In this document: piece after piece, positions 7,896 through 16,291 of the stretch
Layout: the number at the start of each line of letters is the position of its first letter
Numbering within the stretch: position 1 is the first letter of the stretch
Assembly (NCBI RefSeq): GCF_000024925.1
Contig: NC_013521.1
Coordinates: 1,302,001-1,366,000, forward strand
DNA length: 64,000 nt
Reading direction: 5' to 3'
Source of the DNA: Sanguibacter keddieii DSM 10542
GTDB taxonomy: Bacteria; Actinomycetota; Actinomycetes; Actinomycetales; Cellulomonadaceae
The notes under the pieces: model-generated
Seen by the model: only the letters and a program-made list of their open reading frames with translations
Databases searched by the model: none
Told to the model about the DNA's origin: nothing
Position numbers and translations under genes: made by a program

Positions 7896-7901
7896 TAGGA
7901 T
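7896..7901 (+). promoter_or_regulatory. -10 element of the response regulator, leaderless type
   Basis: TAGGAT ends 6 nt before the GTG at 7908. This spacing favours GTG 7908 over the in-frame GTG at 7902. Confidence 0.6.
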
Positions 7902-7907
7902 GTGGTC

Positions 7908-8582
7908 GTGGACACAACACCTGAGGGCCTGCAGACCGAGAGCATCAGCGTCATGATCGTCGACGACCACGAGGTCGTCCGACGAGGCATCGCCGAGGTG
8001 ATCGACAGGTCCGAGGGCATGAGCGTCGTCGCCGAGGCCGGCAGCGTCGCCGAGGGCGTCCGTCGTGCGAGCCTCGTGCACCCCCAGGTCATGCTCGTCG
8101 ACCTCCAGCTGCCGGACGGCACCGGGATCGACCTCATGCGCTCCGTCCGCGCCACCCAGCCCGAGACCCGCGCGATCGTGCTCACGTCCTTCGACGACGA
8201 CTCGGCCCTGGCCGCCGCCCTCGAGGTGGGGGCCGCCGCCTACGTGCTCAAGAGCGTCCGCGGCGCGGAGATCGCCGACGTCGTGCGCGCCGTCGCCGCC
8301 GGACGGGTGCTGCTCGACGAGCGCACCATCACGCGTCGTCGCCGCGAGCACGACGACCCGACCGAGGACCTCACCCCGAGCGAGGTGCGCGTCGTCGACC
8401 TCATCGGTGAAGGACTCTCGAACCGTGAGATCGCCGAGCGCCTGAGCATCGCGGAGAAGACCGTGAAGAACCACATCACCTCGCTGCTGGCCAAGATGGG
8501 CCTCCAGCGCCGCACCCAGGTCGCCGCCTGGGTCGCCGCACGCAAGCACCACGCCTGGGCGCAGGACTCCACGAACCGCTGA
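7908..8582 (+). CDS. DevR/DosR-like response regulator (NarL/LuxR family)
   Basis: A 224-residue two-component response regulator. The receiver domain (residues 13-130) opens with VDDHEVVRRG; the phosphoacceptor is Asp65 in VDLQLPDG, and the conserved Thr and Lys lie in VLTSF and YVLKS. The LuxR-type helix-turn-helix (about 153-210) reads LSNREIAERLSIAEKTVKNH then LLAKMGLQRRTQ. AEAGSVAE, GRVLLDE, EKTVKN and RRTQ are shared with mycobacterial DevR (DosR), including the lysines and asparagine that contact DNA there. Its likely partner is the convergent GAF kinase ending 75 bp downstream, and DosR-type boxes lie upstream of cydA. The match to DevR is from memory of the family, not from a search. 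Confidence 0.88.
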   Translation: MDTTPEGLQTESISVMIVDDHEVVRRGIAEVIDRSEGMSVVAEAGSVAEGVRRASLVHPQVMLVDLQLPDGTGIDLMRSVRATQPETRAIVLTSFDDDSALAAALEVGAAAYVLKSVRGAEIADVVRAVAAGRVLLDERTITRRRREHDDPTEDLTPSEVRVVDLIGEGLSNREIAERLSIAEKTVKNHITSLLAKMGLQRRTQVAAWVAARKHHAWAQDSTNR

Positions 8583-8625
8583 GCCGGGCCGCCACGGTCG
8601 GGGGAGTGCCCCCGGCGGGCTCGGC

Positions 8626-8656
8626 GGGGTGCTGGGCGGACGCCGCCCAGCACCCC
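8626..8656. terminator. Bidirectional terminator hairpin
   Basis: GGGGTGCTGGGCGG pairs perfectly with CCGCCCAGCACCCC (14 bp) across a 3-nt loop. It ends directly at the kinase stop codon (8657) and lies 43 bp past the regulator stop, so it can serve both convergent units. Confidence 0.8.
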
Positions 8657-9856
8657 TCAGCTGCGCTCGACGAGCGGCGCCGACCAGGTGAGGATCGTGC
8701 CCCGCCCGGTGGCGGAGTTCTCGAGGCTCGACGACCCGCCGTGCTGACGCGCGCGGGCGGCGACGTTCCAGGTCCCCGACTTGCGTCCGGTCGGTGCCCC
8801 GAGCCCGACGCCGTCGTCCTCGACCTCGACGGTGACGTCGCCCGGGCCCTCGTGGAGGGTCGCGACCGTGACGCGCACGGCCACGGACGACGCCTGCGCG
8901 TGCCGGGCGGCGTTCGCGAGCCCCTCGCGCACGACGGCGAGGATGTCGTCGGCCAGCGCCTGGGACACGAGCTCGTCGACGAGCTCTTCGTCGTCGTCGA
9001 TGGCGCCCAGGCTCCGGTCGTCGAGGGAGATGACGAGCGACGGGGCGAAGCCGAGCCCGGTGCGGGCGAGCGACGCCTCGCGGCGCAGCCGCTCGACGAG
9101 CCCGGTCGCCGCGTCGGGGTCGCGCAGGGAGTGGACGATGGCCCGGATCTCGCGCACCGAGTTGTCCACGTTGTCGAGGGCCTCGTCGAGGATGGAGATG
9201 AGCCCGGCCTTGTCGAGGCCGCGCGCCGCGCGGCGCCGGACCGTCTCGAGCTGCATGCCGGTGGCGAACAGCTGCTGGATGGCGAGGTCGTGGAGGTCCC
9301 GCGCGATGCGCTCGCGCTCCTCGACGAGCTTGGAGAGGTCCTGGGCCTGCCGGGCCTCCGAGAGCACGAGGGCGAGGGCAGCCTGGTCCGCGAAGGTCGA
9401 GGCACGCTCGAGGTCCTTGCTGATGAACGCCTCCTGCCCCACCTTGCGCAGCAGCACGAGGACGCCGACGGGCTTCTCCGCGGTCCCCATCGGGGCGTAG
9501 AGCGCGGGGCCGAAGCGCCGCATGGGAGGGAGCTGGAGGTTGCGCGCGACGGCGAGCGAGGGCACGAGCCGGCCCTTGCCGCTGCGCAGCGCGGTCCACG
9601 AGAGCCCGCCGTGCGGCATGGTCTGGCCGAGGAGCTCGTCGGAGTTCCAGCCGCGCACGATCTCCATCACCAGCTCGCCACCGAGCCCGGGGAGGACGAG
9701 GCAGGCCGCGTCGGCGTCGGCGATCTCGCGGGCGACCGAGACGATGTGCTCGAGCACGTCCTCCTCAGGTGCGCCCGACAGCAGCATCGTGGTGATGTGC
9801 GCGCCCGCGCTCAGCCACTTCTCTCGCTCCACAGCATCTGCCTCACCTGGTAGCAC
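8657..9856 (-). CDS. GAF-domain sensor histidine kinase (DevS-like), last gene of cyd operon
   Basis: A 399-residue cytoplasmic histidine kinase with no membrane segment. One GAF domain spans roughly residues 30-165. The HisKA_3 dimerisation helix follows with phosphoacceptor His189 in ERERIARDLHDLAIQQLFAT, very like mycobacterial DevS. The ATP-binding domain has the N box REGLANAARHA (about 310-320), EDDGVGLG and a final GRGTILTW. DevS has two GAF domains; here there is one, with His82 (TMPHGG) a conceivable heme ligand, which is speculation. The GTG start lies 14 nt inside the end of cydC, so it should be co-expressed with cytochrome bd. The response regulator gene converges on it. Confidence 0.9.
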   Translation of the reverse strand: MLPGEADAVEREKWLSAGAHITTMLLSGAPEEDVLEHIVSVAREIADADAACLVLPGLGGELVMEIVRGWNSDELLGQTMPHGGLSWTALRSGKGRLVPSLAVARNLQLPPMRRFGPALYAPMGTAEKPVGVLVLLRKVGQEAFISKDLERASTFADQAALALVLSEARQAQDLSKLVEERERIARDLHDLAIQQLFATGMQLETVRRRAARGLDKAGLISILDEALDNVDNSVREIRAIVHSLRDPDAATGLVERLRREASLARTGLGFAPSLVISLDDRSLGAIDDDEELVDELVSQALADDILAVVREGLANAARHAQASSVAVRVTVATLHEGPGDVTVEVEDDGVGLGAPTGRKSGTWNVAARARQHGGSSSLENSATGRGTILTWSAPLVERS

Positions 9857-11795
9857 CGGGGCTCCTCGTCGTCGTGGTGGTGTGCTCGCCGTCTACTGTC
9901 GCACGGTACGTCGCCTGCGTGACCAGCAGAGACGCGTGCGTGCCGCGGGCGACGACCCCGCCCTCGTCGATCAGCACGACCTCGTCGGCCGCGGCCAGGG
10001 CCGACAGCCGGTGGGTCGCGACCACCACCCCGCGGGGCTGGTCCGTGCCCCGCCCGGCACGCAGCAGGTCGGCCACGAGCTGGTCGGCCGTCGCGGGGTC
10101 CAGGTGCTCGGCGGGCTCGTCCACCAGCAGGAAGGTCGCGGGGGAGCAGAGAGCGCGCGCGAGCAGGAGCCGTCGGCGCTCGCCGCCCGAGATGGTGGCG
10201 CCGTCGGCGCCGAGCGTCGTGAGGACGCCGTCGGGCAGACCGGCGAGCCACTCCCCGAGCCCCGCCCGCTCGAGCGCGGCGACCGCCTGCGCCTCGGCGA
10301 CGTCTCCCCGGGCCACCCGGAGGTTCTCCAGGACCGTCGTGCTGAACACGTGGGCGTCCTCGGTGGTGAGCACCACGTGCTGTGCCACGGTGTCGTGCGA
10401 CGCGGTGCGGACCGGTCGGCCGTCGAGCGTGAGCGACCCGCCGACGGGGTCGACGAGCCCGGCGAGGGTGAGCAGGGTGGTCGTCTTGCCCGTCCCGCTG
10501 GGCCCCACCAGCGCCACCGAACGCCCGGGACGCAGGTCGAGGTCGAGCCCGGCCACGACCGGCGCCGTCCCGGGCCAGCCGCAGGCGAGGTCGCGAGCGG
10601 TGAGGGACAGGGCGGTGAGGGACCGGGCGGTCGAGCGCTGCGCAGGGATGCCGGCCTGCGGCTCTCGGTCTACCTCGGCGATGTCGTCGAGCACGTCGTC
10701 CTTCTCTGGGGGGCCGTCGCGGTCGGGTGCGCCGTCCCCCTCGGGCGTGGCGGCGTCCAGCAGCGCCATGATGCGCGCGGCGGCCTGCCGTGACCGGTGC
10801 ATCTGGATGGCGGCGGCGGGGAGCGTCTGGGTGATCTCGAAGACCGCGAGGGGCGTGAGCACCACGACGGCCAGCTGGACGGGGCCGAGGGTCCCGGCTG
10901 TCACGGAGGGGATGGCGAGCAGCATGGTGGCCACGACGGCGAGCCCGACCGCGAGCGTCCCGATCCCCGCGGCGAGCCCGGAGGTGCGGGCACCTGCGTC
11001 TGTGGCAGCGGCGAGACGACCGTCGGCCTCGGCGAGGGCCTCTCGCCGAGACCGGAGGTTCCCCGACACGGTGAGCGCGGCGGCGTCGTCGACGATCTCG
11101 AGGGCGACCGCCGCCATGTCGGACCTCGCCCGGGCCGTGCGCCGCTCGGTCGTGGCGGCACCGCGCGCGGCGAGCCACGGGCCGACGATCCCGGAGAGCA
11201 CGAGGCAGCCGGCCAGGGCCGCCGCGGCACCGAGGTGGAACACCCCGACGAAGGCCACGGACCCCACACCGAGCACGACGGCCACCGCACCGGGGAGGAT
11301 CGCACGGACCACCACGTCGCCGACCGCGTCGACGTCGGCGCCGACCCGGGCGAGCAGGTCGCCGCGCCGCAGCGCGGCGACGGCGTCGAGGCGCCCGCCC
11401 GCGAGGGCGGCGTAGATGCGGGTGCGCAGCGACGCCATGCCGCGCAGCGCGACGGTGTGCGAGGCCAGCCGCTCGAGGTAGCGGAACAGCCCGCGGGAGA
11501 TGCCGAACATCCGCACCGACACCGTCGCGACCGTGAGGGTCATGACCGGGGGCATCTGGGACGCCCGCGCGATGAGCCACGCGGAGACCGCAGCGAGGGC
11601 GATGGCGCTGCCCAGGGCGAGGACGCCCAGCAGCAGCGCTAGCGCCGCCCGCCGCAGGTCGACGTCGAGGAGCCGCACGGCTCGGCGCAGCGGGTCGGCG
11701 GAGCCGTGCGAGGAGCGTGGCTCGGTGGTGGCGGAGGGGTCGGTGGTGGCGGACAGGTCCGCCGCGACGGAGGTCTCGGGCGCTCGGGGGCTCAT
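9843..11795 (-). CDS. cydC: Thiol reductant ABC exporter subunit CydC
   Basis: CydC pairs with CydD in an ABC transporter in the cytoplasmic membrane needed for cytochrome bd assembly; cysteine/glutathione export and, more recently, heme have been proposed as cargo. The 650-residue protein has a membrane domain (about 45-340) including SAWLIARASQMPPV and FRYLERLASH. The ATPase domain carries Walker A GPSGTGKTTT, signature ISGGERRRLLLAR and Walker B FLLVDEP. A proline-rich linker of about 55 residues separates the two. The ATG overlaps the cydD stop (ATGA), and the 3' end overlaps the kinase gene. Confidence 0.93.
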   Translation of the reverse strand: MSPRAPETSVAADLSATTDPSATTEPRSSHGSADPLRRAVRLLDVDLRRAALALLLGVLALGSAIALAAVSAWLIARASQMPPVMTLTVATVSVRMFGISRGLFRYLERLASHTVALRGMASLRTRIYAALAGGRLDAVAALRRGDLLARVGADVDAVGDVVVRAILPGAVAVVLGVGSVAFVGVFHLGAAAALAGCLVLSGIVGPWLAARGAATTERRTARARSDMAAVALEIVDDAAALTVSGNLRSRREALAEADGRLAAATDAGARTSGLAAGIGTLAVGLAVVATMLLAIPSVTAGTLGPVQLAVVVLTPLAVFEITQTLPAAAIQMHRSRQAAARIMALLDAATPEGDGAPDRDGPPEKDDVLDDIAEVDREPQAGIPAQRSTARSLTALSLTARDLACGWPGTAPVVAGLDLDLRPGRSVALVGPSGTGKTTTLLTLAGLVDPVGGSLTLDGRPVRTASHDTVAQHVVLTTEDAHVFSTTVLENLRVARGDVAEAQAVAALERAGLGEWLAGLPDGVLTTLGADGATISGGERRRLLLARALCSPATFLLVDEPAEHLDPATADQLVADLLRAGRGTDQPRGVVVATHRLSALAAADEVVLIDEGGVVARGTHASLLVTQATYRATVDGEHTTTTTRSPGATR

Positions 11796-13519
11796 GCGTC
11801 GACCTCGTCACGGGTGCGGGGGGAGGAGGTGACCTCGACGACGTCGTCCGCGAGGGCGACGAGGCTCGGCCGGTGCGCCACGACCAGGACGGTGCGCCCC
11901 GCCTCGCGCAGCGCGGCGAGGGAGGCGAGCACCTGGTCCTCGGCGAGGGCGTCCAGGTGCGCCGTGGGCTCGTCGAGCACGACGAGCGGCTCGTCGCCGA
12001 GCAGCGCCGCGGTGAGGGCGACGCGCTGGCGCTGGCCGACGCTCAGGCCCACCCCGCCCTGACCGAGCACCGTGTCGAGGCCGTCGGGCAGCGCGGCGAC
12101 CACGGCGTCGAGCCCCGTGAGGCGCATGGCCCGGGCGGTCGCGGCAGCGGTCCCGGCAGCGGTGTCGTCAGGGTCGAAGGTGTCGCCCCGGGGGCCCTGG
12201 TGCTCCGCGCCCGAGCGGCGCGCGGCGTCGAGCGTCGCACGGATCGAGCCGGGTGGCAGCGCGCTGCGCTGGGGGAGCCAGGCGATCTGCCGCCACCAGG
12301 TCTCGAGGTCGACGGTCGCCAGGTCGGTGCCGTCCACCTGCACGGTCCCGGCGTCCGGGCTGACGAGGCCGAGCAGCGCGAGCACCGTCGTCGTCTTGCC
12401 CGAGCCGCTCGGCCCGGTGAGCGCGACGATGCGTCCGGGCGCGATCGAGGCGGTCAGCCCCGACGGGGCGCTGACGTCACGACCGGGAGCCACGACGCCG
12501 ACGCCCGAGAGCGTGACGGTCGACCGGGCGAGGTCGGGTGCGGCGACCGTGCCGCGGGGCCGCAGCGGCTCCTCGATCACGGCGAAGGCCTTCTGCGCCG
12601 CCGTGATGCCGTCGGTCGACGCGTGGAACTGCACGCCGATCTGCCGGATCGGCAGGTACACCTCGGGGGCGAGCACCAGGACGGCGATCGCGACCTCGAG
12701 GTCGACCTGCCCGTAGACCAGGCGCAGCCCGACCCCCACGGCCACGAGGGCGACCGACAGCGTGGTGAGCAGCTCGAGCACCATGCCGGAGAGGAAGGCG
12801 ACGCGCAGCGTCTTCATCGTCGAGCGCGTGTAGGCCTCGCCGAGCTGGCGGACCCGGGCGACGGGGCCGCGCTCGCGGCCGAAGGCCCGCAGCGTCGGCA
12901 GACCGGCGAGCAGGTCGAGCACCTGCGAGCCGAGCCGCTGCATGACCGCGAGCCTGCGCTCGGAGTACGCCTGCGTCAGCTGGCCCACCAGGATCATGAA
13001 GACCGGGACGAGCGGGATGGTGACGACGACGATCACCGCCGAGATCCAGTCGAGCCCGAAGACCACGACGAGCGTCGCGGGGGTGACCGTGACGGCCAGC
13101 AGGAGCTGGGGGAGGTAGCGCACGAGGTAGGGCTCGAGGTCGTCCAGACCTCGGGTCGCGAGGGTCACCACGTCGACGCCCTGACCGGTGGCGAGCCAGC
13201 GAGGCCCGAGCCCGGCGGCGTGCTCGAGCACCTGGCCGCGCAGGCTCGTGACGACCCGGGTCGCGGCGCGGTGCGCGTAGCGCTCCTGCAGGCCGTTGAC
13301 GACGGCCCGCGCCACGACGACCGCCGCGAGCCACCGGAGGTGGCCCGCGACGTCGCCGAGGGTGGCGCCGGAGGAGACGACCGGCGCGAGCACGGCCGCG
13401 ATGAGCAGGGCCTGTGCGATGACGAGCCCGGCGGTGACGATGCCGAAGGCCGTGGTCAGCAGCACGTACCCGCGGGCAGGCGCTGCGTACCGGAGCAGCT
13501 TCGGGTCGAGAGGCTTCAC
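11792..13519 (-). CDS. cydD: Thiol reductant ABC exporter subunit CydD
   Basis: This is the partner of CydC in the ABC exporter required for maturation of cytochrome bd oxidase. The 575-residue protein has the membrane-spanning domain in residues 1-310 and the ATPase domain after about 340. The latter shows Walker A GPSGSGKTTT, signature LSVGQRQRVAL and Walker B LVVLDEPTAHLD. A Pro/Thr/Gly-rich insertion lies between Walker A and the signature. The start is GTG, 1 bp after the cydB stop codon, and the order cydA-cydB-cydD-cydC is standard for Actinobacteria. Confidence 0.93.
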   Translation of the reverse strand: MKPLDPKLLRYAAPARGYVLLTTAFGIVTAGLVIAQALLIAAVLAPVVSSGATLGDVAGHLRWLAAVVVARAVVNGLQERYAHRAATRVVTSLRGQVLEHAAGLGPRWLATGQGVDVVTLATRGLDDLEPYLVRYLPQLLLAVTVTPATLVVVFGLDWISAVIVVVTIPLVPVFMILVGQLTQAYSERRLAVMQRLGSQVLDLLAGLPTLRAFGRERGPVARVRQLGEAYTRSTMKTLRVAFLSGMVLELLTTLSVALVAVGVGLRLVYGQVDLEVAIAVLVLAPEVYLPIRQIGVQFHASTDGITAAQKAFAVIEEPLRPRGTVAAPDLARSTVTLSGVGVVAPGRDVSAPSGLTASIAPGRIVALTGPSGSGKTTTVLALLGLVSPDAGTVQVDGTDLATVDLETWWRQIAWLPQRSALPPGSIRATLDAARRSGAEHQGPRGDTFDPDDTAAGTAAATARAMRLTGLDAVVAALPDGLDTVLGQGGVGLSVGQRQRVALTAALLGDEPLVVLDEPTAHLDALAEDQVLASLAALREAGRTVLVVAHRPSLVALADDVVEVTSSPRTRDEVDA

Positions 13520-13520
13520 G

Positions 13521-14627
13521 TCAGTGGGTGTCCTGCGGTGTCGGGGTCTCCGGCGTCCCGGACGACGGCGGCGTGCCCCGGCCGTCGGTGCGGCGCGGCG
13601 GGGTGAGCGACGGCAGGCCGATGGGCTCGGGGATGTGGTGCGTGCCGATGCGCTTGCGGAACACCCAGTACGTCCACGACTGGTAGAGCAGGACGAGGGG
13701 CGTGAGGAACAGCGCGACCCAGGTCATCACGGTGAGCGTGTACTCGGTCGAGGACGCGTTGCGGATGTTCAGGGAGTTGGCCGGGTCGTTGCTCGCCGGC
13801 ATGACGTCCGGGTACATCGAGCCGAAGATGAGCACGACGGCGGCGAGGATCGCGAGGGCGGACCAGAAGAACGCCCAGCCCTCACGGGCCCGTGCGTTCG
13901 AGACCACGACGGCGACGAGAGCCGCCGCGGCGACGGCGACCGCACCCCAGGTCCAGGTCGTCCCGTAGGCGAGCTGCGCCCAGAGGGCCCAGCCGCCGGC
14001 CGCGACCACCGAGGCGACCGAGAACATGCCGGCCAGGCGGCGGGCCCGGACGCGGATGTCGCCCTCGGTCTTGAGCGCCACGAACACGGCACCGTGCGTG
14101 AGGAAGAGCAGCATTGTGACGACGCCACCGAGCAGCGCGAAGGGGGAGAGGAGGGAGAAGAACCCGCCCGTCATCGTGTGGTTCGCGTCCATCTCGACAC
14201 CGCGGACCAGGTTGGCGAAGGCGACGCCCCAGAGGATCGAGGGGAGCCACGACCCGATGATCACCGAGGCGTCCCAGCGGCGGCGCCACGTGGCGTCGTT
14301 GATCTTCGAGCGGTACTCGAAGCCCATGCCGCGCACGATGAGGCAGATGAGGATGATGAACAGCGGGATGTAGAAGCCGGAGAAGAGCGAGGCGTACCAC
14401 TCGGGGAACGCCGCGAAGGTCGCCCCGCCGGCGGTCAGCAGCCACACCTCGTTGCCGTCCCAGACGGGGCCGATGGTGTTGATCATGACCCGGCGGTCCT
14501 TCTCCTTGCGACCGAGGATCGGCATGAGCATGCCGACGCCGAAGTCGAAGCCCTCGAGCACGAGGTAGCCCGTCCACAGGACGGCGATCAGTACGAACCA
14601 GAGCACCTGGAGTGTTTCGAGGTCCAC
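13521..14627 (-). CDS. cydB: Cytochrome bd ubiquinol oxidase subunit II
   Basis: CydB is the structural second subunit of the bd-type quinol oxidase, which reduces oxygen with high affinity without pumping protons. The 368-residue protein has about eight hydrophobic helices and the family motifs LVLEGFDFGVGML, GPVWDGNEVWLL and RGMGFEYR. A hydrophilic Pro/Thr-rich tail of about 30 residues follows the last helix and probably lies in the cytoplasm. The GTG start at 14627 is preceded by an AAGGAC-type ribosome binding site. It lies 30 bp after cydA. Confidence 0.96.
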   Translation of the reverse strand: MDLETLQVLWFVLIAVLWTGYLVLEGFDFGVGMLMPILGRKEKDRRVMINTIGPVWDGNEVWLLTAGGATFAAFPEWYASLFSGFYIPLFIILICLIVRGMGFEYRSKINDATWRRRWDASVIIGSWLPSILWGVAFANLVRGVEMDANHTMTGGFFSLLSPFALLGGVVTMLLFLTHGAVFVALKTEGDIRVRARRLAGMFSVASVVAAGGWALWAQLAYGTTWTWGAVAVAAAALVAVVVSNARAREGWAFFWSALAILAAVVLIFGSMYPDVMPASNDPANSLNIRNASSTEYTLTVMTWVALFLTPLVLLYQSWTYWVFRKRIGTHHIPEPIGLPSLTPPRRTDGRGTPPSSGTPETPTPQDTH

Positions 14628-14657
14628 GTCGTAGGTCCTTTCTCGCGGTGCGGAGGG

Positions 14658-16148
14658 TCAGTAGGCGAAGGACAGCGGACGGTCGGCCGTGTCGTCGTCG
14701 TCGGATCGGGCCTCGGGGGAGTCGTCGTGGACGGTCTCGGGCGCGCCCTCGACCATGTACCGCCAGATGAGGCGGACCCAGACGACGGTGAGGACGGTGT
14801 AGACGAGCGTGAAGATCGCCATCGAGGCGAAGACCACCCCCGCGCCCTGGGCGAGCGAGACACCGTTCTCGGTGAGCATGCGGATCTGGTCGATGCCTGT
14901 CGGGTTGGGCACCACGACCCACGGCTGACGCCCGGCCTCGGTGAAGATCCAGCCGAAGGACGACGCGAGGAACGGCATGGGGATCGCGATCAGCCCGACG
15001 CGGGCCAGCCAGGTGCTGTCGCTGACCCGCCCCTTGCGGGTGAGCCACAGCGCCATGACCGCGAGCAGGGCCGACCCGGCGCCCAGGCCGATCATGAGCC
15101 GGAAGCTCCAGTAGGTGAGGGCGAGGTTGGGCGAGTAGTCGATCGGGTTGCCTGCGGCGTCGGTGTCGCCGTAGCGCTCTTCCATCTGCTGCTGGACCTC
15201 GTCGATCCCCGGCAGCGGGGCGGAGAAGGACCCGTCGGCCAGGAAGCTGGTCAGCCCGGGGATCTCCAGGACGTGCGTGACGTTCTCGCAGTCGTTGGCC
15301 AGGTTGCCGAGGGTGAGGATGGAGAACGGCGCCCCGTTCGGCGAGGACTCGCACAGGGCCTCGGCCGCGGCCATCTTCATGGGCTGCTGCTGGAACATCA
15401 GCTTGGCCTGGGCGTCGCCCGACACGGCGATGCCGGCACCCGACACGATCATCACCACGAGCCCGAGGATCACCGCAGGCCGGTACACGTCCCGGGCGAC
15501 CTCCTTGCGCCCGCGACGGACCTCGCGGACCATCCACCAGGCGGCGATGCCGGCCACGAAGGTCCCGGCTGTCAACCACGCGGCGGTGATGGTGTGCGGG
15601 AACGCGGCGAGGAGGGTGTTGTTGGTGAGCACCGCCCAGATGTCGTTCATCTCCGCGCGACCGGTCTCCGGGTTGAAGACCGCCCCCACGGGGTGCTGCA
15701 TCCAGGAGTTGGCCGCGAGGATGAAGTAGGCCGAGAGGTTGGTCGCGACGGCCACGGCCCAGATGCACGCGAGGTGGATCTTCTTGGGGAGCTTGTCCCA
15801 CCCGAAGATCCACAGCCCCAGGAACGTCGACTCGACGAAGAACGCGGCGAGCGCCTCCATGGCGAGCGGGGCTCCGAAGACGTCGCCGACGAACCGCGAG
15901 TACTCGCTCCAGTTCATGCCGAACTGGAACTCCTGGACGATCCCGGTCACCACGCCGATGGCGAAGTTGATGAGGAGCAGCTTGCCGAAGAACTTGGTGA
16001 GCTTGAGCCAGCGCTCGTTGCCCGTGCGGACCCAGGCGGTCTGCATGATGGCGACCAGGGGTGCGAGCCCGATCGTCAGAGGTACGTAGAAGAAGTGATA
16101 GACGGTGGTGATGGCGAACTGCCACCGAGCTATGTCCAGGACGTCCAC
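14658..16148 (-). CDS. cydA: Cytochrome bd ubiquinol oxidase subunit I
   Basis: CydA carries the three hemes of cytochrome bd and the quinol site. The 496-residue protein begins MDVLDIARWQFAITTVYHFFYVPLT; His18 corresponds to the heme ligand His19 of E. coli. GRQPWVVVPNPTG marks the conserved segment after the quinol loop, which is of the short type. An acidic tail rich in Asp ends the protein. The GTG start has AGGAG about 6 nt upstream. It heads the cyd operon, and its upstream region has two DosR-type palindromes and a candidate -10. Confidence 0.97.
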   Translation of the reverse strand: MDVLDIARWQFAITTVYHFFYVPLTIGLAPLVAIMQTAWVRTGNERWLKLTKFFGKLLLINFAIGVVTGIVQEFQFGMNWSEYSRFVGDVFGAPLAMEALAAFFVESTFLGLWIFGWDKLPKKIHLACIWAVAVATNLSAYFILAANSWMQHPVGAVFNPETGRAEMNDIWAVLTNNTLLAAFPHTITAAWLTAGTFVAGIAAWWMVREVRRGRKEVARDVYRPAVILGLVVMIVSGAGIAVSGDAQAKLMFQQQPMKMAAAEALCESSPNGAPFSILTLGNLANDCENVTHVLEIPGLTSFLADGSFSAPLPGIDEVQQQMEERYGDTDAAGNPIDYSPNLALTYWSFRLMIGLGAGSALLAVMALWLTRKGRVSDSTWLARVGLIAIPMPFLASSFGWIFTEAGRQPWVVVPNPTGIDQIRMLTENGVSLAQGAGVVFASMAIFTLVYTVLTVVWVRLIWRYMVEGAPETVHDDSPEARSDDDDTADRPLSFAY

Positions 16149-16206
16149 GGTGCTCCTGAGGGTGTGGGTGGGGCGCGAGGCGGGGCGCGGGGTGCGGCTC
16201 GAACTG

Positions 16207-16212
16207 ACGCTA
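16207..16212 (-). promoter_or_regulatory. Candidate -10 of the cyd operon
   Basis: On the minus strand this reads TAGCGT, about 60 nt before the cydA GTG. Transcription would start near 16200. No good -35 is visible, which would suit an activated promoter. Confidence 0.4.
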
Positions 16213-16234
16213 TGCCGTGAAGATTTCGGGGTGT

Positions 16235-16248
16235 GGGACCAAGGTCCC
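16235..16248. promoter_or_regulatory. DosR-type box 1 upstream of cydA
   Basis: GGGACCAAGGTCCC is a perfect inverted repeat with a 2-nt centre. It fits the DosR/DevR box core GGGACTWWAGTCCC except for one symmetric change in each arm. Its centre is about 41 bp above the predicted cydA transcription start, the usual place for an activator touching RNA polymerase. Confidence 0.55.
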
Positions 16249-16277
16249 TGCCCCGTGCAGGAAGGCGTCCGGCCCGC

Positions 16278-16291
16278 GTGACCTAGGTCTC
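16278..16291. promoter_or_regulatory. DosR-type box 2 upstream of cydA
   Basis: GTGACCTAGGTCTC contains the perfect palindrome GACCTAGGTC and matches box 1 at the GACC-N2-GGTC core. The two centres are 43 bp apart, about four helical turns. Confidence 0.45.

Follow-up and report, generated by a model that had tools for sequence, protein, structure and literature searches.

The window analysed here is a stretch of 64,000 nucleotides of the single-contig genome (4,253,413 bases) of Sanguibacter keddieii DSM 10542 (NC_013521.1, forward strand, 1,302,001-1,366,000); window coordinates are used throughout. The nearest named relatives are Sanguibacter species, and the histidine kinase encoded at the locus is 93% identical to the S. 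inulinus kinase. Profile matches gave a family assignment for all six genes of the locus. Coordinates and families agree with the order proposed in the initial annotation, cydA-cydB-cydD-cydC followed by an overlapping kinase gene and a convergent NarL-type regulator gene. The GTG start of the kinase gene sits within cydC, and the two genes share 14 nt. The two palindromic boxes proposed upstream of cydA, 43 bp apart, are both present. The features are as follows:

7902..8582, plus strand: NarL/LuxR-type response regulator, DevR-like, 226 aa (domain and structure matches)
8657..9856, minus strand: soluble histidine kinase, 399 aa, with a GAF-B-like domain, HisKA_3 (H189) and HATPase_c, and without GAF-A
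9843..9856, minus strand: overlap of the cydC end and the kinase start, 14 nt
9843..11795, minus strand: cydC (TIGR02868)
11792..13519, minus strand: cydD (TIGR02857)
13521..14627, minus strand: cydB (TIGR00203)
14658..16148, minus strand: cydA, GTG start, AGGAG at 16153-16157 (PF01654)
16207..16212, minus strand: predicted -10 hexamer TAGCGT, with the transcript start predicted near 16200
16235..16248, no strand: primary box GGGACC-AA-GGTCCC, with its centre 41.5 bp above the predicted start
16278..16291, no strand: secondary box GTGACCTAGGTCTC, 43 bp above the primary box, at this place only in Sanguibacter

The regulator has a receiver and a GerE domain, and its best solved-structure match was DevR of M. 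tuberculosis (PDB 3c3w; 176.1 bits, query residues 15-214). Scores were lower for VraR (134.7 bits, the next match), NarL (104.1 bits) and ChrA (102.8 bits; HrrA was not among the matches listed). The motifs VDDHEVVRRG, AEAGSVAE, EKTVKN and RRTQ, on which the likeness to DevR had first been proposed, were all found and align with DevR (PDB 3c3w). None of the best 25 of 94 NCBIfam models reached its cut-off for this protein. The phosphoacceptor Asp lies within VDLQLP. The recognition helix, EKTVKNHITSLLAKMG, has the KxxKN residues that we take to be the DNA-contacting ones in DevR/DosR regulators, and EKTVKN is present in 76/76 regulators of cyd-linked loci (96/98 of all regulator rows). Autoregulation of the regulator gene was considered and dropped, as no box with two mismatches or fewer was found between 6266 and 10527, the span holding this gene.

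The domain search resolved the kinase into one GAF, HisKA_3 and HATPase_c, and the best matches of the ATPase domain were DosT and DevS. The sole GAF matched 2vjw from M. smegmatis (E 7e-5), a structure identified as GAF-B of DosS in a review (PMC4082495), and it aligns to the second GAF of related kinases. Cellulomonas-type relatives have ORFs of mostly 570-660 residues with an extra GAF in front, most with an HPPM motif. This front GAF matched the DevS heme GAF-A structures at 2e-29, and the histidine before PPM aligns to a DevS histidine that, by count, is His149, the heme ligand of DevS GAF-A (PMC4082495). Neither a GAF-A nor its proximal heme histidine was found in the ORF of the window's kinase. 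The kinase had been described as DevS-like with a single GAF; the GAF-B, the HisKA_3 and the ATPase nearest to DosT/DevS bear this out, but the heme GAF-A is missing, so that the protein is not a full DevS and its one GAF is GAF-B-like. Since the heme GAF-A is missing, direct heme O2 sensing by this kinase is unlikely.

A quick-method tree of 109 kinases (without G012, three partial-match rows and three duplicates) placed the 13 single-GAF rows (Sanguibacter, g16, g18 and g5) in one clade with SH-aLRT 99, and its sisters have two GAFs. This nesting among two-GAF kinases indicates that GAF-A was lost in the ancestor of the 13-row clade. The label for GAF-A presence needs three changes on the tree, so the domain went missing outside this clade as well, in f11 and in L178 (f13). 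The G012 kinase likewise lacks GAF-A; its ORF is split over two frames (L077), as by a pseudogene or a sequencing error. A Cellulomonas-type GAF-A query found no copy in 12 of the 13 single-GAF genomes, and the remaining one (G040) carries one DevS-type GAF-A in another gene. No Cys of GAF-B is conserved across the clade, and thiol sensing by this domain was dropped because its only Cys is not conserved. No 19-residue Kyte-Doolittle window of the kinase exceeded 1.6 (35 windows in cydA, used as control). An AlphaFold model of the kinase from five sequences (mean pLDDT 44.8) was set aside.

Other kinases of this type were seen on the way. In nine loci (L168-L172 in f20; L155-L157, L162 and L164 in f3) there is a GAF-A match, weak or partial in some, without the H-x-x-M motif, and heme binding may have been lost there too. 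The G063 locus L079 has two tandem DevS-like kinases, a regulator and a hydroxyacid dehydrogenase, with no cyd genes in the stretch. Four Cellulomonas-type genomes have a second, two-GAF DevS paralogue with an exact box near the gene start (L252 in G013, G101:C1:2824865, G114:C1:995253 and G130:C1:3672283), placed as it might be for autoregulation; the second kinase copies of G098 and G063 have no exact box nearby.

The kinase was matched at 1e-40 in 132 of the 297 genomes of the order sample. cydC adjoins the kinase gene in 52/75 fetched family loci (three of the 75 being duplicates) and in 37/40 loci of the order outside the family (the script cut-off gave 36; L175, with a short cydC match, was added), counts that differ from frequencies among all genomes, as loci were picked by kinase similarity. 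The remaining 23 family loci are 20 distant matches or second copies, one on a short contig (L086) and two without cyd genes (L079, L108). The placement beside cydC, initially noted as a difference from the mycobacterial system, is thus not special to this genome but recurs through much of the order. The hydroxyacid dehydrogenase gene lies past the kinase and regulator genes in the window; in L257 (G011), L367, L369 and L373 it directly follows cydC, and the kinase and regulator are missing from the locus.

The sequence upstream of cydA in the window is GGGACCAAGGTCCC. It reads GGGACC-WW-GGTCCC, two letters different from the DosR consensus with which it had been compared, and the DevR/DosR box is presumably a near-identical palindrome. 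The number of boxes in the window was unremarkable (83 matches with two mismatches or fewer vs. 119.6 expected). Since window motif statistics were unconvincing, conservation was used as evidence. GGGACN4GTCCC, with at most one mismatch and within 250 bp of cydA, was found in 43/49 family upstreams that are cyd-linked and non-identical (exact in 30; shuffles gave an expectation of 2.35), in 21/33 upstreams from the order (exact in 11; expectation 1.1) and in 7/30 unlinked family upstreams (exact in 3; expectation 1.1). All 30 unlinked controls were directly seen to lack linkage, 18 from a cyd locus that has neither kinase nor regulator and 12 from the nearest kinase's locus, which has no cyd genes. 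RGGACNWWNGTCCY within 300 bp of cydA was present in 44/49 linked and 5/30 unlinked family upstreams (Fisher 5e-11, kinship uncorrected) and in 21/33 of those from the order, with related genomes treated as separate, so that these counts are not independent; 12/33 order loci have no RGGACNWWNGTCCY at cydA. At the sequence level, the cydA upstreams thus show the palindromic box GGGAC-N4-GTCCC of DevR/DosR targets.

A scan for consensus promoters found nothing, and it was the box-anchored alignment that revealed a hexamer. Counted from the box start, TANNNT follows at 36-38 bases in 44/44 linked family boxes (at 36 in 30 of them), in 0/5 unlinked ones and, at 35-38 bases, in 18/21 order boxes. 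If TANNNT is the -10 hexamer, from which all start sites given here are predicted, the centre of the cydA box would be at -41.5 to -43.5, the position of a class II activator. The start based on TAGCGT puts the window's nearer box at -41.5, close to the distance of about 41 bp first suggested. The secondary, weaker box is found 43-44 bp above the primary one in 6/6 Sanguibacter genomes, and no other family locus in the box comparison had a match with two mismatches or fewer at that distance.

Five linked loci of Cellulomonas type (L062, L064, L065, L068 and L107) have no box, with the recognition helix nearly unchanged. The kinase tree unites them in a single clade and, by eye, the hexamer is changed too in four of them; this clade, which keeps the cyd-linked pair, amounts to a natural experiment. 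The five unlinked genomes with a box upstream of cydA (including G011) have it farther up and without the hexamer. That the box might serve the divergent rne gene alone was dropped as an explanation because of the near-fixed spacing to the cydA-side hexamer across genera. In nine family loci (L096, L100-L106 and L109) and three from the order (L163, L167 and L173), the DevR-type box upstream of cydA is preceded by a second inverted repeat, TGAC-N5-GTCA, whose start lies 19-20 bp before it; this repeat is perhaps the site of another regulator.

The same box is also found at ctaC and other genes with the opposite promoter geometry, an observation that goes beyond the initial annotation. All six Sanguibacter genomes have AGGACGAAGGTCCT upstream of ctaC (aa3 oxidase). 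CtaC was found in 30/30 family genomes searched, and its gene has the box in 25/25 cyd-linked genomes, in G063 (where the pair is away from cyd) and in 1/4 unlinked genomes (G058). TANNNT lies 15-17 bases before the box in 27/27, which predicts a box at about +5 to +18, just past the start, the geometry of a repressor. The three genomes G011, G023 and G031, which have no linked pair, keep AGGACGAAGGTTCT at the same place, one letter off the palindrome; because this near-copy persists without the pair, something else may conserve part of the ctaC element. In other families of the order, 32 genomes were searched and ctaC was found in 23, with the box in 6/23 (both f12 genomes, all three ctaC-bearing f3 genomes and one of f13). 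TANNNT lies 13-16 bases before five of these six boxes and 16 bases after the start of the sixth. The centres and flanks of these sites differ, which favours selection on the palindrome itself.

A genome scan for GGGAC-N4-GTCCC, suggested in the initial annotation, gave 26 occurrences of GGGACN4GTCCC vs. 8 of the reversed pattern. In the six Sanguibacter genomes RGGACNWWNGTCCY occurs 63 times vs. 11 for the reversed pattern, and the target genes named here stand beside only part of these boxes. The exact GGGACCWWGGTCCC is found at three places in the S. keddieii genome, at cydA and upstream of a Dcu C4-dicarboxylate transporter gene and of kgd; six of 12 related genomes carry a single copy, which is at cydA in five and at nrdD in one. 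At kgd, TANNNT starts 21 bases beyond the beginning of the box, and at dcu there is none; both boxes were seen in the S. keddieii genome only. The acs box is present at +1, with TANNNT at -12, in four of the six Sanguibacter genomes (G000, G019, G040 and G070) and was not seen in the stretches looked at in the other two. nrdD (anaerobic ribonucleotide reductase) has a box in G039, G040, G082 and G126, without TANNNT at the cyd spacing. An acetate uptake gene also has a box, as does ilvD (dihydroxy-acid dehydratase) in S. keddieii and S. inulinus. Upstream of ilvD (L016, L328) there are tandem box-like palindromes, GGGCCGTAGGTCCC and GGGACGTAGGTCCC, kept in S. inulinus.

Gene order, the absent domain, box conservation and spacing, all directly observed, are probably best explained by a DevR-family two-component pair acting as a terminal-oxidase switch, bd on and aa3 off, in an ArcA-like manner and with feedback on its own kinase. 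Phosphotransfer within the pair would yield the phosphorylated regulator, which would bind RGGACNWWNGTCCY. From the cydA box, at -41.5 over the -35 region, it would activate cydABDC and the kinase gene; from the ctaC and acs boxes, which start at about +5 and +1, it would repress both acetate activation and the aa3 oxidase. Feedback would be positive on the kinase, whose gene stands at the operon end, and absent on the regulator, because there is no box at the regulator gene. That the operon makes its own sensor, as first proposed, gains support from the comparison, the kinase gene standing at the end of the operon that the kinase is expected to control. Of the proposal that the regulator activates cyd at low oxygen, the DevR-type regulator tied to cydA and the box at an activator position stand, but low oxygen sensed by heme is unlikely with GAF-A missing. 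Sanguibacter and its neighbours would have lost the DevS heme domain and kept GAF-B and the kinase core, with an input other than O2 on a DevS-type heme. Most likely the input is a signal of respiratory-chain state, or else the kinase is constitutively active; we prefer a respiratory-state signal to heme O2 and regard constitutive activity as its main rival.

This rival, in which the kinase is a degenerate DevS that is always on, control comes from elsewhere and the loss of GAF-A is decay, appears unlikely but deserves weight. A mycobacterial construct of GAF-B and kinase showed activity in every condition and no response to gas (PMC4082495), and the GAF-B of the clade offers no conserved Cys; against decay, GAF-B and kinase are 79-93% identical within the Sanguibacter/g16/g18 group, the phosphorylated-His motif is intact and the box is in place across the clade. 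It is somewhat less probable again that the pair activates cyd only, the boxes at ctaC, acs and elsewhere being functionless or bound by another regulator. The exact GGGACCWWGGTCCC does occur at most once in the 12 related genomes, mostly at cydA, and the ctaC near-copy is found in three genomes without the linked pair, yet the full ctaC palindrome is present in every one of the 25 linked genomes, and in f12 and f3 it reappears with other centres and other flanks, as would be expected of an operator.

We regard as improbable that the boxes belong to a different NarL-type regulator, with some other role for the linked pair. Motif conservation names no protein, and the genome has 17 HisKA_3 matches, but both box (44/49 vs. 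5/30) and hexamer spacing (44/44 vs. 0/5) track the linked pair, and the recognition helix matches that of DevR, whose known box is, we assume, close to this one. Least credible, to a degree that makes it very improbable, is heme-responsive control of both oxidases of the HrrSA type known from Corynebacterium glutamicum: HrrS is membrane-bound, whereas the window's kinase has no membrane segment, and the regulator scored 102.8 bits to ChrA vs. 176.1 to DevR (HrrA was not among the matches listed). What speaks for it is that HrrA controls both the aa3 and the bd genes (PMC7337898). Coming back to the oxidase switch, a wider form of it is doubtful but worth stating: in much of the Actinomycetales, the DevRS line may be the equivalent of ArcAB, a switch dedicated to respiration that activates bd together with the anaerobic genes nrdD and dcu from upstream of the start and represses aa3 and acetate activation from downstream of it, with the Sanguibacter clade having swapped heme O2 sensing for a signal to GAF-B or the kinase core, e.g. 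quinol-pool redox. If true, a gas sensor would have become a respiratory-state sensor without change of the operator code.

Among the titles and abstracts listed from one open-access library, which lacks most subscription papers, none described this wiring. HrrSA resembles the pair as an actinobacterial two-component system acting on both oxidases, but differs in being heme-responsive and activating both oxidase branches (PMC7337898); membership was dropped on the scores and the lack of a membrane segment given above. OsdKR of Streptomyces coelicolor is a relative of DevRS with a palindromic box. Its published consensus, AGGGCCGATCGGCCCT (PMC5069765), differs from the box here, and the main text of that paper does not contain the term cyd.

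The likeness to ArcAB of enterobacteria is that one regulator would be expected to raise the bd oxidase and lower the low-affinity oxidase together with acetate and TCA genes. ArcA in enterobacteria acts in this way, with the bd oxidase up and the low-affinity oxidase, acetate and TCA genes down. The parts are unrelated, ArcA having an OmpR-type winged helix and ArcB being a membrane hybrid kinase, whereas the DNA-binding domain of our regulator is GerE/LuxR; the pair works like ArcAB, and no homology is claimed.

DevRS/DosRST provides the closest parts: a DevR-like regulator with a shared recognition-helix motif, a kinase ATPase nearest to DosT/DevS and a GAF like 2vjw. The differences are that the kinase here has no heme GAF-A, follows cydC and converges with the regulator. 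The DevR/DosR regulon is one of dormancy, with universal stress proteins and hspX; the same parts look here like housekeeping control of oxidase choice. cydA, which looks like a target here, is none in M. smegmatis. According to PMC7739888, cydAB is outside the 49-gene DevR regulon there, and normal cydA induction in a devR mutant is reported as data not shown; the wiring therefore differs from that mycobacterium. GAF-B structures leave the role of this domain unclarified (PMC4082495), and what GAF-B and kinase of DevS sense alone is an open point in the mycobacterial field. A clade without the heme domain that keeps operator, spacing and gene order offers a direct test of sensing by the GAF-B and kinase of DevS.
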